Assembly: GCA_031265015.1 (NCBI GenBank)
Contig: JAISDG010000074.1
Coordinates: forward strand, 1-33,204
Reading direction: 5' to 3'
Source of the DNA: Spirochaetaceae bacterium
Lineage (GTDB): Bacteria > Spirochaetota > Spirochaetia > Treponematales > Breznakiellaceae
Length of the DNA: 33,204 bases
Shown: positions 10 through 11,072 of the stretch, one piece after another
How the letters are laid out: each line of letters starts with the position of its first letter
Numbering within the stretch: the first letter of the stretch is position 1
Translations under genes and position numbers: made by a program
The notes under the pieces: generated by a model
What the model saw: only the letters and a program-made list of their open reading frames with translations
Databases searched by the model: none
What the model was told of the DNA's origin: nothing

Positions 10-38
10 TTGACTTCCATCCCTGAATATCCTATTGT
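10..38 (+). promoter_or_regulatory. Sigma70-like promoter upstream of the Rrf2 pair: TTGACT (10-15), 17 bp spacer, TATTGT (33-38)
   Basis: Read directly; 17 bp spacing; about 20 bp before the ATG at 59. Confidence 0.5.
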
Positions 39-49
39 TTACCTAGGAT
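29..49. promoter_or_regulatory. Palindromic operator candidate ATCCTA-N9-TAGGAT overlapping the -10 element
   Basis: Perfect 6-bp inverted repeat with 9-bp spacer, just upstream of the first rrf2 gene. Confidence 0.5.
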
Positions 50-58
50 TAAAAAGAA

Positions 59-493
59 ATGAGAATATCAACCAAAGGCCGCTATTCCCTGGAAGCCGTT
101 TTGTACATGAGCCTGCTTCCCAGGGACGAATACAGCAGTACCAGGGCGATCGCGGAAAATACGGACATTTCGGAGGGGTACCTGGAACAGCTCTTCATTC
201 CCCTGCGGAAGGCCGGTATCGTCAAGGGCATCCGGGGGCCCCAGGGGGGGTATCTGCCGGCAAAATCCCTGAAAAAAATCACCGTAGGGGAAATTCTCCG
301 GGCGGTGGAGGGCCCCCTGGAACCGGTGGCCTGCGCCGTCAAGAACAATTTCTGCGCCAAGGAAAACAAGTGCCTGTCCCGGACCATCTGGAAGGAGCTC
401 CATAAGGAAATAAGCCGCTGCGTGGATTCGATCACCATGGCCGACCTGGTCAAGGCCTATACCATCATGGACAATCCGGAGTACCAGATATGA
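59..493 (+). CDS. Rrf2-family transcriptional regulator with candidate Fe-S cysteine motif (C-x6-C-x5-C)
   Basis: MRISTKGRYSLEAVLYM N-terminus and GPQGGY wing typical of Rrf2; CAVKNNFCAKENKC followed by LSRTIWKEL as in IscR/NsrR-like proteins. Confidence 0.9.
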   Translation: MRISTKGRYSLEAVLYMSLLPRDEYSSTRAIAENTDISEGYLEQLFIPLRKAGIVKGIRGPQGGYLPAKSLKKITVGEILRAVEGPLEPVACAVKNNFCAKENKCLSRTIWKELHKEISRCVDSITMADLVKAYTIMDNPEYQI

Positions 494-918
494 AGATTTC
501 CACCAGGGGACGCTACGGTACCAGGCTTCTCATCGATCTGGCGGAACATCTGGATGAAAGCCACGTTTCCCTGGCTTCGGCGGCCGAACGGCAGGGCATA
601 TCCCTCCGGTATCTTGAACAGCTTGCGGTGATCCTTAAACGGGCGGGATTTATCCGTTCGGTTAAGGGCGCCTCCGGGGGCTATGTGCTGGCCAGGCCCC
701 CGGAAGAAATCGTTCTGGGAGACGTGCTCCGGGTTTTGGAGGGCGATATGCTGGTGGCGGACCCGGCCGAAAACGGCGCGAAAGAAACCAAACTGCAGCG
801 CTGTATCAGGCTGCTGGTGCTGGATAAACTTAATTCCAAAATCGCCCAGGTTATTGAAAACAAAACCCTCGCGTCCGTGGCCGGGGCCGGTCACGAGACC
901 TATATGTATTATATCTAG
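490..918 (+). CDS. Rrf2-family transcriptional regulator lacking the cysteine triad
   Basis: MKISTRGRYGTRLLIDLAEH, YLEQLAVILKRAGFIRSVKGASGGY; overlaps the previous stop (ATGA). Confidence 0.9.
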   Translation: MKISTRGRYGTRLLIDLAEHLDESHVSLASAAERQGISLRYLEQLAVILKRAGFIRSVKGASGGYVLARPPEEIVLGDVLRVLEGDMLVADPAENGAKETKLQRCIRLLVLDKLNSKIAQVIENKTLASVAGAGHETYMYYI

Positions 919-935
919 GTATTTTTCCCGTTTTG

Positions 936-944
936 TGATATAGT
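936..944 (+). promoter_or_regulatory. Extended -10 promoter candidate TGATATAGT immediately upstream of the FIST gene
   Basis: TGnTATAGT at 936-944, ATG at 951, no Shine-Dalgarno between. Confidence 0.4.
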
Positions 945-950
945 TTTCTC

Positions 951-2114
951 ATGATAAGGATTCTTTCTGCCCATACGTCCGAAATTGACGATGTGCAAGC
1001 CGCTGTGGCCGGTATTACGGCGCAGCTTGACGCCGGACAGAGGACGCTCAAAAATTCCGTTGGCCTTGTCAGCTGTTATGCCGAATTTGTCGAATCCGGG
1101 GTTGTAGCCGCCCTGGCCGGGGCTCTGCCTTTTCCCATTGCGGGGATTACTACGATTGCCGCGGCTTCCAACAGCGGGCAGGGGGAAATGCTCCTTTTCC
1201 TGACCGTCCTCAGTTCGGATGATGTGGAATTTGTCCTGGGAATAACGGATCCCATTTCCGGGGAGGATGAAGCGCCCCTCCGCGCCGCCTGGAAAAAGAC
1301 CGGGGCAGGGCGGCCTGATAAGGCTGCCCTGATGCTGAGTTTTTGTCCCCTTCTTTTTAACGTGTCCGGTGATTTTATTGTCGACGCGTGGTCGGCAATT
1401 ACCGGTAATGTGCCGAACTTCGGGACCCTGGCGGTGGATCATAACCGGGACTACCACGAAGCCCGGACCATTCTGAACGGCGAAGCCTACAGGGACCGGT
1501 ATGTATTTGTTCTGCTCTATGGCAGCATAGAGCCCCGGTTTTTTATCGCCGGTATCCGGGAAGAAAAGGCCTTCCGGGAAAAAGGGGTAGTTACCGCTTC
1601 CCAGGGGAACCAGCTCCAGGGAGTAAACGGCATTTCCGTGGCGGATTATCTTTCCGGCCTGGGGCTGGCCAGGGATGAAGAAGGCAAAATCAAGGGAATT
1701 AATGCCTATCCCTTTATTCTTGATTATAATGACGGCACCCAGCCGGTTATCAGGGTGATGTTCGCCGTCACTCCCGGCGGTTCGGCGGTCTGTGGCGGCA
1801 AAATACCTGTGGGGGCGACATTGACGGTGGGGATCATCGACGGGGACGAGGTGCTTGCCACCTCCGCGGCAATCCTTAACCGGGCGGCGGCCGCCGCGGA
1901 CGCGGAAAAGGGCGCGCTTATTTTCTCCTGCATAGGCCGGTTTCTTTCCCAGGGTTATGAAAGCGCCAGGGAAATGGAGAAGGCCCGGGAGACGCTGGAA
2001 AAGATTCCCTTCCATTTGTGCTATTCGGGGGGCGAATTATGCCCTGTGTACGGCAGGGACGGAACCCTGACAAACCGGAGCCATAACGATACCATGGTGA
2101 TATGTGTGCTGTGA
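951..2114 (+). CDS. FIST N/C domain sensory protein (NosP-like candidate)
   Basis: 387 aa; [10 protein letters not shown] region and the FIST_C-type end ([12 protein letters not shown]...[13 protein letters not shown]). Confidence 0.8.
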
Positions 2115-3790
2115 ACGGCGGGGAACAGCTTGAACAGGAATTAGTTCAGGCCCGGTTAACCATCAAAAAACTGCAGAGGGAACTGAACCGGGCTCATGTG
2201 TTAATAGAGCGGAACAAGGTTACCGCCGAGGCAAAGGACAATTTAAGCCGCGTTGTTTCCCAAAAAAAATCGGAGCTGGAACATTACATGAGCCTGCTCC
2301 TGCAAAATTCCCCCGATATTATTCTGGTTTTTGACCGTGAAGAAAAACTGTTGCACTGTACCGATGCCTTTCTTAAGATAACCCATACCGCCGGTTTCGG
2401 GCTTGTCGCGGGAGTTACCTGCCGGCAGATACTGGCCAAATACACGGATCGGGCTTTTTTTAAACAGGCGGGTGAAGCCTACGACCGTGCCCAGAGCAGC
2501 GCCTCTGTGGCGCATCTAACCGGAACCATCGACTTCGGGCAGGAGGGTAATTTCCGGGAATACAGCATACAGATAACTTCCATGCAGGATGATGCCGGCA
2601 GCAACATGGGGGTTATCATGCTTTTTTTTGATACCACGGAACTGCTGCAGGCCCAGAAAGAAGCGGAAAAAGCAAACAAAGCCAAGTCCGATTTTCTTGC
2701 TACGGTGTCCCATGAAATCCGTACCCCCATGAACGCCATTATCGGCATTTCGCAGATGCTGGGGGCAACGGAACTGACCGAACGGCAGCGGGGGTATCTG
2801 AAAAATATCCAGGGTTCTTCCACCGTGCTGCTGAACCTGATTAACGATATCCTGGATTTTTCCAAGATTGAGGCGGGCAAACTGGAACTGATCCGCGACT
2901 ACTTTAAACTGCCGGTCCTGCTGGGCAGGGTTAAAACCATATTTACCCTGTTGTTTGATGATAAGGCCCTTGCCTTCGACTGCGAATTTTCCCGGGAGCT
3001 TCCCGAGGTGGTATACGGTGACGAAAACCGGCTGAGTCAAATCCTGTCCAACCTGCTTTCCAATGCCCTTAAATATACCAGCTCGGGCGGGGTTGTGCTG
3101 AGGGTGTTTCCCGAAGGGGACCGTATCGTTATCGAAGTGGAAGATACGGGGATTGGCATCAAGACGGAAGCCCTTTCAAAGCTCTTCACCGCCTTTCAAC
3201 AGCTTGATCAGGTAAGGAACAAGCAGGTTCAGGGAACGGGGCTGGGCCTGGTAATTACCAGGCGGCTCTGTGAGATGATGGATGGCTCCATTTCGGTACG
3301 CAGTGAATACAACAAGGGATCGATATTTATCATCCGGCTTCTTTTGCCCCGGGGGACCGAATCCGATCTGCCGAAAGAAAAAGAGCGGATCGCCTTTGTC
3401 GCGCCGGGCGCCCGGGTATTGCTGGTGGATGACATTGACATCAACCTGGAAATAGCCGCCTTCGTGCTGTCCGCCTACCGGATACAGCCGGATTTGGCAA
3501 AGAGCGGCAAGGAGGCGCTGGAAAAGGTGGCGAACGGTGAATACGATCTTATCCTGATGGACCACATGATGCCCGAAATGGACGGAGTGGAAGCCGTCAA
3601 AGCCATCCGGGCCATGGGAGGAAACAACGCGGGAATACCCATCCTGGCCCTGACGGCAAATGCCGTAAGCGGAGCCAGGGAAATGTTTCTGGCCAACGGC
3701 TTTAACGGACTTCTTCCCAAACCCATGGACAACGCGGTCCTGGCGGACGCGCTTTTGAAATGGCTCCCCAAAGAACTGATTCTTCATTAA
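2102..3790 (+). CDS. Soluble PAS hybrid histidine kinase (coiled coil-PAS-HisKA-HATPase-REC)
   Basis: H-box [14 protein letters not shown]-box [11 protein letters not shown]-boxes DTGIGI/GTGLGL, receiver VLLVDD...[13 protein letters not shown]; no transmembrane segment apparent; overlaps the FIST stop by 13 bp. Confidence 0.93.
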
Positions 3791-3836: not shown

Positions 3837-4565
3837 TTACACAAGACTGCCCGAAGCGCAGGCAGCGAGGATGCGCCGCTTGACGGCGCCGGAATTGTCC
3901 GTTAAACCGGCAAGTTTTTTCCGCATCTCCCGCCGCCCGGAATTGGTCCCGTAAGGGCAGGTACAGGCCGCTTTTAGGATGCCCTGTTCTTCGGCGCAGG
4001 CGATGATCTGCCGTTCTTCGATGTAGGCCAGGGGCCGGATCAGGGTAACGGGATATTTGCGGTAGGCAAGCTTGACCGGCATGGCGGACAGCTCTCCCCT
4101 GGCGCAGAGGTTCATAAAAAAGGTTTCGACGATGTCGTCCAAATGGTGGCCCAGGGCGATTTTGGTAAATCCCCTGTCCACGGCGTACTTTAACAGTTCC
4201 GTCCTGCGCTGGGTGGAACACCAATAGCAGTTCATCTTTCTGCCCGCTTTAAGCCGGCCGATGACGGGTACAAAAAGATCGGTAAAGGGAACGGCCCAGC
4301 TTTCCAGTTTTTGGGAGAGGATTGATTTTTTGCAGCAGGCGCAGAAGTCACTGGAGATATGGAGGGCTTCCAGCTCGTAGTTTCGTTTAAGGGCGGATTT
4401 AAGGGAAGAAAGAACCCAGGCCATGACGGTGGAATCCTTGCCCCCGGAAGCGGCAATAAGAATACGGTCCCCTTCACGGATCAGTTCCCGTTCCAGTACG
4501 GCCTTGGCGCAGAGCTTTCGGACGATTTCGCCGGCGGCGGCCCGGCGGAGAAAGCGGTCAGCCAT
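3837..4565 (-). CDS. ttcA: TtcA-like tRNA 2-thiocytidine synthetase / PP-loop ATPase
   Basis: SGGKDS PP-loop, CYWCSTQRR and C-terminal CTCPYGTNSGRREMRKKL motifs typical of TtcA/TtuA-like thiolases. Confidence 0.8.
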   Translation of the reverse strand: MADRFLRRAAAGEIVRKLCAKAVLERELIREGDRILIAASGGKDSTVMAWVLSSLKSALKRNYELEALHISSDFCACCKKSILSQKLESWAVPFTDLFVPVIGRLKAGRKMNCYWCSTQRRTELLKYAVDRGFTKIALGHHLDDIVETFFMNLCARGELSAMPVKLAYRKYPVTLIRPLAYIEERQIIACAEEQGILKAACTCPYGTNSGRREMRKKLAGLTDNSGAVKRRILAACASGSLV

Positions 4566-5439
4566 GCCGGGCCGCCGGTTCCTTTGCCCGGCGGATAACG
4601 TCGTTTATTACCAGGCTTGCCAGAATCATCCCCGCCGCGGCGGTGACCGTAACGATGCTGCCGTTGATCACCTTTTTGGAAGAACACCACCCGTCCCCGG
4701 CGGAACAAAAGCACCGGGGGGTTCCGCAGAAACTTTCGGACCCTTCGGCCCGGCCCGGCGGTTCATCACTGTATACCACGGTAAGCTTTCCGGTAAAGCC
4801 CCGTTTTTTAAGGCCCTGCCGTACCAGCCGGGCCAGGGGGCAGCCCCTGGTATCCCAAATGTCCGCGGTCCTTATCCGGGCCGGGTCCAGCCGGGAGGCC
4901 ATTCCCATGCAGGAAAAAAGCTGCGGACCCGCCGGGCCGTTCCGCGTAACCGGAGGCTCCGATCCGGCGCAGAGTTCTATCAAGTCCAGCTTGCCGGTCA
5001 GGCTGTCGATGGCGTCGATCACATAGCCGGCCCCGCCGATTTCAAAAAGCGGCGCGGTATCCCGGGAAAAAATTTTGTTGAATGCCCGTACTTCGCAGCG
5101 GGGATTGATGTCCAGAAGCCGCTTCATCAGTACCGCTGCCTTGGGAAGCCCCACCGTTCCGGGCAGGGCCTGGATCTGGCGGTTGATGTTGGTAACACAG
5201 ACAGAGTCGGAGTCAACGACGGTAACCCGCCCTATGCCGGAACGGACCAGCGCTTCCGCCGCCCAGCTTCCCACGCCCCCCAGGCCGAAGACAATCACCC
5301 CGGTCCGTTCCAGCGCGGCCAGGGCTTCCCTCCCCGCCAGCAGGCTCAGACGGTGAAACTGGGGCGCTTCCCCGCCGGGCGCCTGGCCGTGCGGGGAAAC
5401 GGTGGAATGATCCTGTCTGCCGGGAAATGGCGTGTCCAT
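4558..5439 (-). CDS. tcdA: ThiF/MoeB-family E1-like protein, probable tRNA threonylcarbamoyladenosine dehydratase TcdA
   Basis: VIVFGLGGVGSWAAEALVRSGIGRVTVVDSDSVCVTNINRQ adenylation/Rossmann motif; start placed at internal M (5439) rather than the longest ORF start (5526). Confidence 0.8.
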   Translation of the reverse strand: MDTPFPGRQDHSTVSPHGQAPGGEAPQFHRLSLLAGREALAALERTGVIVFGLGGVGSWAAEALVRSGIGRVTVVDSDSVCVTNINRQIQALPGTVGLPKAAVLMKRLLDINPRCEVRAFNKIFSRDTAPLFEIGGAGYVIDAIDSLTGKLDLIELCAGSEPPVTRNGPAGPQLFSCMGMASRLDPARIRTADIWDTRGCPLARLVRQGLKKRGFTGKLTVVYSDEPPGRAEGSESFCGTPRCFCSAGDGWCSSKKVINGSIVTVTAAAGMILASLVINDVIRRAKEPAARHG

Positions 5440-5564
5440 GGGAATCCTCACCCTGTTACTATAGGTCCCGGACAATAATTTTTCAATGACGTGCCTTGTC
5501 CGCGCAGTAATTCCAAATTCAACCATGGATCACATTGATAGGTGCGGACCTTATGAAGAAATTT

Positions 5565-9613: not shown

Positions 9614-9658
9614 TGGGAGAAAGTGGGATATTTTAGGATAAAGTAGGATAAAGTGTTA
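9614..9658 (+). promoter_or_regulatory. MraZ box array: TGGGA/TAGGA-type units at 10-bp period upstream of mraZ
   Basis: TGGGAGAAAG (9614), TGGGATATTT (9624), TAGGATAAAG (9634), TAGGATAAAG (9644), TG (9654) running into the ATG at 9658. Confidence 0.75.
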
Positions 9659-10104
9659 TGGTATTATTCAGCGGGGATTATCCCGCTACCCTGGACGACA
9701 AGGGCCGTATAAGTATCCCCGCCAAATTCAGGGAACGAATTCCCGGGAATACGCTGGTTCTTACCAAGGGAATGATAGAACACTGCGTCTGGGCTTTTAC
9801 TCCCGAAGACTGGGACAGGGTATCGTCCAAGATAAAAAACGAGGTGAACCTGCCTGCCCGGAAGGCCGATATGCTTTACCACAGGCTGTTATTTTCTACC
9901 TATGAAGTGGAAATCGACAGGGCGGGCCGTATTGCCGTGCCCCAGAAGCTCCGGGATTTTGCCGGCCTTACCAAGGATTGTTCGGTAACCAGCGACGGAT
10001 CCCGCATAGAGATCTGGGATGCCGGGCGCTACCGGTCTTACGAACAGGAAATTGACGAACAGTTGGGGGATGTCCTGAAGGAGACGTCCTTGAACATGTA
10101 TTAA
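9658..10104 (+). CDS. mraZ: Transcriptional regulator MraZ
   Basis: DDKGRISIPAKFR and DRAGRIAVPQKLRDFAGL duplicated AbrB-like motifs; first gene of dcw cluster. Confidence 0.97.
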   Translation: MVLFSGDYPATLDDKGRISIPAKFRERIPGNTLVLTKGMIEHCVWAFTPEDWDRVSSKIKNEVNLPARKADMLYHRLLFSTYEVEIDRAGRIAVPQKLRDFAGLTKDCSVTSDGSRIEIWDAGRYRSYEQEIDEQLGDVLKETSLNMY

Positions 10105-10124
10105 AAAATACCGATGGAGGGGAT

Positions 10125-11072
10125 GTGAACGTAGTCCATAGTCCGGTACTGCTGGAAGAAACAATACGGTACCTCGCGCCCCGGGAGGAGGGGGAACTTA
10201 TGATAGACGCGACCCTGGGGGAAGGGGGACACAGTTTCGCTTTTTTAAGCCGTTTTCCCGGCCTGCGGATTGCCGGCATCGACGCCGATCGGGAGATTCA
10301 GGCAAAAGCCAGGGAACGGCTCAAGGACTTCCCGGACCGGATACGTTTCTATACCTGCTGGTCCCAGGAATTTTTTGCCGCCTATCCCGAAGATCTGGAA
10401 AGGCCCGATACGATTCTTTTTGATTTGGGGATAAGCCTCTACCACTATGAAGAATCCCGCCGGGGTTTCAGCTTCCGGAAAGACGAATACCTGGATATGC
10501 GCCTTGATACTTCCCGGGGAAAAACCGCTGCCGAGCTTATCAGCTCCCTGCCGGAAAAGGATTTGGCGGATCTGCTGTATACCTATGCGGACGAACGGTT
10601 TTCCCGCCGCATCGCCAGGGCGGTTAAAAAAGCCTCCGTTCCTGTCACCACCACCGGCGCCCTGGCCGGCCTGGTGGCCGCTTCGGTCCCCGCGCCGTAC
10701 CGCCGGGGTCCCGTTCATCCTGCGACCCGGACCTTCCAGGCCCTGCGGATGGCGGTAAACCGGGAAGTAAGCGGCCTGCCTCCGCTGCTGGAGAACGCCC
10801 TGAAGGCCCTTAAAACCGGGGGGCGCATGGGGGTTATCAGCTTCCATTCGGGAGAAGACCGGACGGTAAAGCGGTTTTTCCGGGATAAAAACAGGGACTG
10901 TACCTGCCCCCCGGAAGCGCCGATATGTAGATGTGGGGGATTCCGCACCGTTACTATCCTGACCCGCCGGGCGGTGAGCGCCGGGAAAGCGGAACGCCTC
11001 AGCAATCCCTCTTCCCGGAGCGCGAAACTCCGGGCGGCGGAGAAAATTCATGAATCCGGGGTGCTTCCATGA
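10125..11072 (+). CDS. rsmH: 16S rRNA (cytosine(1402)-N(4))-methyltransferase RsmH (GTG start)
   Basis: HSPVLLEETIRYL, DATLGEGGHS, RTFQALRMAVNREV, GVISFHSGEDRTVKRFF. Confidence 0.97.
   Translation: MNVVHSPVLLEETIRYLAPREEGELMIDATLGEGGHSFAFLSRFPGLRIAGIDADREIQAKARERLKDFPDRIRFYTCWSQEFFAAYPEDLERPDTILFDLGISLYHYEESRRGFSFRKDEYLDMRLDTSRGKTAAELISSLPEKDLADLLYTYADERFSRRIARAVKKASVPVTTTGALAGLVAASVPAPYRRGPVHPATRTFQALRMAVNREVSGLPPLLENALKALKTGGRMGVISFHSGEDRTVKRFFRDKNRDCTCPPEAPICRCGGFRTVTILTRRAVSAGKAERLSNPSSRSAKLRAAEKIHESGVLP

Follow-up and report, generated by a model that had tools for sequence, protein, structure and literature searches.

The locus at the start of this contig raises the question of whether two Rrf2 regulators, a FIST-domain protein and a soluble hybrid histidine kinase (HHK) form one nitric oxide (NO) and redox sensing cassette, as a preliminary description had proposed, or separate systems. 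The window, i.e. the whole stretch of DNA analyzed, is the entire contig C187 (33,204 nt). Only 58 nt upstream of the first gene are included and the source genome is incomplete (2.09 Mb, 68.7% complete). The best explanation, which we regard as probable, is that the locus joins, one behind the other, two modules that are each conserved on their own, with FIST-HHK placed behind sulfur-operator control. That there are two modules and that the Rrf2 pair is of the sulfur type is held with good confidence.

Organization of the locus

All four genes lie on the + strand (59-493, 490-918, 951-2114 and 2102-3790), with overlaps of 4 nt between genes 1 and 2 and of 13 nt between genes 3 and 4. This co-directional arrangement had been pointed out in the preliminary description and is confirmed by the ORF coordinates and Pfam domains. 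The interpretation given there is partly supported, for the partnership of FIST and kinase but not for NO. A candidate promoter and a palindromic operator upstream of gene 1, absent from that description, complete the unit:

10..38, + strand: candidate sigma-70-type promoter TTGACT-17-TATTGT, 9/12 consensus matches, kept in the sister species (G001)
28..50, + strand: palindromic operator TATCCTATTGTTTACCTAGGATT, consensus TATCCTA-N9-TAGGATA, overlapping the -10 hexamer, PWM score 30.5
59..493, + strand: Rrf2A, IscR/CymR-like regulator, Pfam Rrf2 E=9e-36, C92-x6-C99-x5-C105 and Arg8
490..918, + strand: Rrf2B, CymR-like regulator without cluster cysteines, Pfam Rrf2 E=2e-30, 4-nt overlap with Rrf2A
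951..2114, + strand: FIST_N + FIST_C protein of 387 aa, Pfam FIST N 4e-15 and FIST C 2e-16
2102..3790, + strand: soluble HHK with PAS-like region, HisKA (H204), HATPase_c and receiver (D487)

The same four-gene unit is present with 91-99% identity in a sister genome of the same genus. The locus given with it, L032, comes from a 'Treponema sp.' metagenome assembly.

The Rrf2 pair and its operator

Rrf2A-like genes were found in 164 of 200 genomes of the family (E<=1e-15). Forty regions were fetched around the best Rrf2A orthologues, and in nearly all of the orthologue regions examined Rrf2B comes directly after Rrf2A. Both proteins pass the Rrf2 superfamily model TIGR00738 (124 bits for Rrf2A and 108 for Rrf2B, cut-off 73.3 bits). 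The cut-offs of the NsrR equivalog NF008240 (61 and 47 bits, cut-off 182 bits), of IscR TIGR02010 (114 bits for Rrf2A, cut-off 207.55 bits) and of CymR NF047409 (107 bits for Rrf2A and 118 for Rrf2B, cut-off 195 bits) are all missed, and the pair is therefore called IscR/CymR-like, neither name being assigned. Rrf2A resembles IscR by its three cluster cysteines C92, C99 and C105 (kept in 43/43 orthologues), its KGRY N-terminus and an operator of the IscR/CymR motif class, but no isc/suf genes adjoin Rrf2A in the regions examined. Rrf2B lacks cluster-type cysteines and is best matched to CymR of the Bacillales, from which the system differs in having two tandem Rrf2 proteins and in the sub-threshold score of Rrf2B. 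In CymR, CysK acts as a partner that modulates binding to DNA. The likeness of NsrR to Rrf2A consists of an Rrf2 fold with three cysteines. In ScNsrR, the residue Asp8 is a cluster ligand (PMC5411485), whereas the position of this fourth ligand is occupied by Arg8 in 43/43 Rrf2A orthologues. NO-detoxification genes, another point of difference from NsrR, were not found at the loci examined.

The genomic context of the pair points to sulfur metabolism. In at least 20 of the 40 regions it lies directly behind one or two genes for PF01053 Cys/Met PLP enzymes of ~400 aa. The nearest NCBIfam models are those of cystathionine beta-lyase, cystathionine gamma-lyase/homocysteine desulfhydrase and a methionine-biosynthesis PLP protein, every score being below the equivalog cut-off. 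The palindrome TATCCTA-N9-TAGGATA was found upstream of the Cys/Met operon in 19/23 relatives and directly before Rrf2A in 13/17 loci without Cys/Met enzymes, the latter count being partly by construction since 12 sites upstream of Rrf2A went into the PWM, and the former independent of the PWM. Altogether, 32 of the 40 relatives that were scored have the operator before the pair or the operon, against a background of ~1.8% for 330-nt stretches taken at random from these loci, a figure that itself includes true sites. The site at 28-50 is the best PWM match in the window (runner-up 13.2), and its overlap with the predicted -10 hexamer is the position expected of a repressor site.

The regulon was examined by an operator pattern search of five genomes. 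Nine sites were recovered with <=2 mismatches, seven before assigned targets and two without an assigned target. Three are Rrf2A promoters (source genome, sister and G020), one belongs to the Cys/Met operon of G168, and two precede cysteine synthases (L200, L202), the one at L202 scoring 441 bits and thereby passing the CysK threshold of 351 bits. The last precedes the gene of a family-2A encapsulin shell protein (489 vs 380 bits). Family-2A encapsulins are induced by sulfur starvation and their cargo is a cysteine desulfurase (PMC8049743). The encapsulin site is located at L198:1501-1523 in the relative G030 and has 1 mismatch. Weaker sites lie before amino-acid ABC transporter genes, but genome-wide counts with 3 mismatches are close to those of a reversed-pattern control, so that single weak sites prove little.

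CymR regulons have a matching gene content, and the motif of IscR is similar to that of CymR (PMC3828012). The likeness to CymR extends to the cysteine synthases, amino-acid transport and Cys/Met enzymes of the regulon, and to a palindromic operator located, on computational grounds, at cysteine/sulfur genes. Taken together, the Cys/Met-operon context and the presence of the operator at the Rrf2 pair, at cysteine synthases and at the encapsulin gene indicate a sulfur regulon of the IscR/CymR type and not of the NsrR type. The NsrR-like, NO-sensing Rrf2 regulator that had been proposed is not supported: this regulon, the cysteine/sulfur operon and Arg8 in place of Asp8 speak against it. Rrf2A and Rrf2B would instead be an autoregulated repressor pair that binds TATCCTA-N9-TAGGATA, responds to cysteine or Fe-S supply and governs a cysteine/sulfur regulon.

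The FIST protein and its kinase

The FIST protein has the FIST_N and FIST_C domains of NosP and is encoded, as NosP is, beside a kinase. It differs from NosP systems in having no NosP-model match, in its extra conserved cysteines and in the haem-synthesis genes missing from relatives. The NCBIfam NosP model NF041558 (equivalog cut-off 450 bits) does not match it up to E=10, and membership of NosP is rejected on this model; NosP-like FISTs of the same order score about 210 bits. Ferrochelatase was found in 0/59 relatives by a search positive in 8/14 controls, and HemB in 2/59, being absent from 57, by a search positive in 11/14 controls. The relatives may scavenge haem. The missing NosP match and the scarcity of these enzymes speak against NO as the signal. 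A plasmid tblastn search for named FIST/NosP comparators gave no match, and a PDB sequence search with the FIST protein returned nothing relevant. Its AlphaFold model (pLDDT 79, pTM 0.83) is closest in fold to the FIST domain of FBXO22 and then, more distantly, to cyanuric acid hydrolase; these matches gave no ligand clue.

In the alignment of the FIST subfamily (50 rows, one duplicated), five cysteines are near-invariant: C42 (47/50), C281 (42/50), C327 (50/50), C364 (45/50) and C385 (49/50). H378 is kept in 47/50 rows. Ten other FISTs have only C327 in common with them, apart from one C281; the remaining four cysteines are missing, or almost so, in NosP-like FISTs. This cysteine-rich FIST subfamily is new, and so are the operator and regulon of sulfur type that go with the Rrf2 pair. 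FIST domains are presumed to be binders of small ligands (PMC4398556). The leading idea is that the protein is a candidate for thiol- or metal-based sensing, although sensing through the cysteines themselves is advanced with much reserve.

The HHK has all the elements of a hybrid histidine kinase, namely HisKA with H204 (1e-21), HATPase_c (2e-28) with N and G boxes, and a Response_reg receiver (7e-20) with D487. A PAS_4 match stays slightly under its cut-off (21.7 vs 23.1 bits) and the N-terminus appears coiled-coil-like. The maximum 19-residue Kyte-Doolittle mean of 1.55 bears out the earlier statement that the kinase has no transmembrane segment. A kinase adjoins the FIST gene in 45 of 48 loci examined, which supports the FIST-soluble hybrid kinase partnership proposed previously. 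The three exceptions are a Synergistaceae locus, a contig end that bears FIST genes in tandem and a locus with a REC-AraC regulator. FIST would be the cytosolic sensor setting HHK activity through a predicted interaction. The tandem arrangement comprises two FIST genes at L184:5178-7157.

FIST proteins of this type are present in three copies in the source genome and in up to seven in a relative. The type is nearly confined to the family (14/393 genomes sampled across the phylum, of which 12 belong to the family), and the orthologous group (E<=1e-115) occurs in 22/394 genomes of the order. Close relatives are also found in Synergistaceae and Coriobacteriia assemblies (L043:6001-7170 and L046:772-1932), a distribution suggestive of horizontal transfer; no kinase adjoins the Synergistaceae copy.

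The preliminary description saw no HPt or output gene. None indeed lies next to the HHK gene, but six Hpt matches occur elsewhere in the genome, one of them, below cut-off, within a kinase beside another FIST on C180. A REC-HD-GYP regulator is encoded near four FIST-HHK loci, including the C180 locus of the source genome, and directly after the kinase at the G034 orthologue. The NosR protein of Burkholderia is a REC-HD-GYP regulator (PMC12570481) and VpsS acts via a separate Hpt protein (PMC4398556). The Hpt matches, the REC-HD-GYP neighbors and these parallels make a phosphorelay to a c-di-GMP output the most likely route, and such an end of the relay is plausible for the HHK. The system thus resembles NosP-NosK/NahK(-NosR) in its stand-alone FIST beside a soluble (hybrid) kinase and in the REC-HD-GYP genes near paralogous loci. 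In contrast to NosP-NahK, the HHK scores far below the cut-offs of the NahK model NF041831 (147 vs 1500 bits) and of the near-NosP model NF041832 (198 vs 400 bits). VpsV-VpsS of Vibrio cholerae (PMC4398556) likewise has a FIST gene adjoining a cytoplasmic hybrid kinase with a separate Hpt, but belongs to another lineage, has LuxU/LuxO quorum sensing as its known output and is described without Rrf2 genes in the text examined.

NosP-like FISTs were also met at L007, L008, L011 and L012 (near 1339-2535), each followed by a gene for ~280 aa (near 2532-3396). That of L011 encodes a soluble MCP-signalling protein, which suggests a FIST input to chemotaxis.

Joining of the two modules

The Rrf2 pair and FIST-HHK are adjacent in four genomes: the source, its sister G001, G020 and L045, i.e. 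3/22 family genomes with a FIST orthologue plus one outside genome. Neighborhood conservation, proposed earlier as a check, holds for each pair by itself and for the four-gene unit only in these four genomes, so that the single NO/redox cassette is not conserved as such. The L045 locus reads Cys/Met enzyme, Rrf2A, Rrf2B, FIST, HHK; its genes are linked, yet no operator was detected there. In the FIST tree, linked loci occupy two or more positions that non-linked relatives separate, and the linkage may possibly have one old origin followed by losses or have been gained several times. In the window, Rrf2B and FIST are separated by about 33 nt (918-951) without any terminator-like sequence, which makes read-through from the sulfur-controlled promoter likely. 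The candidate promoter at 10-38 probably drives Rrf2A and the whole four-gene unit, and co-transcription of the modules in this lineage is a fairly probable prediction.

The two modules could be incidental neighbors, both functional but unrelated and brought together by local rearrangement. The narrow scope of the linkage within the family agrees with this, as do at least 13 other FIST orthologue loci whose upstream genes are varied and different; no operator was found before FIST at the non-linked orthologue loci examined. We consider this explanation unlikely, though not negligibly so: order, strand and short spacing are the same in three genera or lineages (source/G001, G020 and L045), a terminator is absent between the modules, and the tree permits one old origin with losses as well as repeated gains.

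A dual NO cassette, in which a haem-binding NosP-like FIST, a NahK-like kinase and an NsrR-like Rrf2 act together, is very improbable. The FIST protein does contain C364-P365, and other proteins use such a Cys-Pro dipeptide as a haem-regulatory motif. The two genes are laid out as in NosP/NosK, where the kinase is soluble (PMC12570481). Three cysteines of the cluster type are present in Rrf2A, and REC-HD-GYP neighbors recall NosR. Against these stand the absence of a NosP match at E=10, the low kinase scores, the absence of ferrochelatase and near absence of HemB from relatives, Arg8 instead of Asp8 in Rrf2A, and a regulon of sulfur genes rather than NO-detoxification genes. It was also considered whether FIST senses a metabolite of sulfur or metal-cofactor metabolism (cysteine, polysulfide, a molybdenum-cofactor or pterin intermediate), the kinase adjusting cofactor metabolism. 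The Rrf2 sulfur regulators adjoining FIST in the window, its conserved cysteines and the small-ligand binding presumed of FIST domains (PMC4398556) are consistent with such sensing. In one genus (L159, L160, L163, also L035, L036 and L047), a moeA-mogA-moaC-moaA-MOSC operon overlaps the end of FIST-HHK. The molybdenum link is however restricted to this genus, and other orthologues have unrelated neighbors (alcohol dehydrogenase, PpiC-type isomerase, MCP, ParA), which leaves metabolite sensing of this kind doubtful. As a general partner of FIST-HHK, molybdenum cofactor is rejected. A Sir2-family gene lies beyond the operon in the L159, L160 and L163 group.

Under the preferred reading of two conserved modules in tandem, transcription of FIST-HHK would start at the operator-controlled promoter, and both proteins would be produced once cysteine or Fe-S supply falls. 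FIST would then bind a small ligand or react via its conserved cysteines, and the kinase would pass phosphate from H204 to D487 and on to an Hpt protein encoded elsewhere, the relay most likely ending at a REC-HD-GYP (c-di-GMP) regulator. FIST-HHK could even represent a class of FIST sensors that work without haem and through cysteines (thiol, Fe-S or metal), placed here under a sulfur-responsive Rrf2 operator, so that sulfur status sets the signal of a c-di-GMP phosphorelay as well as its amount; this last proposal is speculative and rather unlikely to hold in full. FIST domains are widespread, and the only ligands reported in the literature examined are NO/haem (NosP) and haem (CdpA). If bacteria that apparently cannot synthesize haem have a cysteine-conserved FIST subfamily, a FIST gene next to a kinase should not be taken to mean NO sensing. 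The operator and its regulon constitute a directly testable sulfur-control circuit in mostly uncultured spirochaetes.

Further genes of the window deserve mention. At 3837-5526 on the - strand, convergent with the kinase gene, a TtcA-like PP-loop protein and a TcdA/ThiF-like enzyme are encoded, both related to sulfur or tRNA modification and below equivalog cut-offs. The genes mraZ-mraW (9658-11072) mark the start of a cell-division gene cluster, and the runner-up operator-like match (13.2) beside them, at 9657, is probably due to chance.
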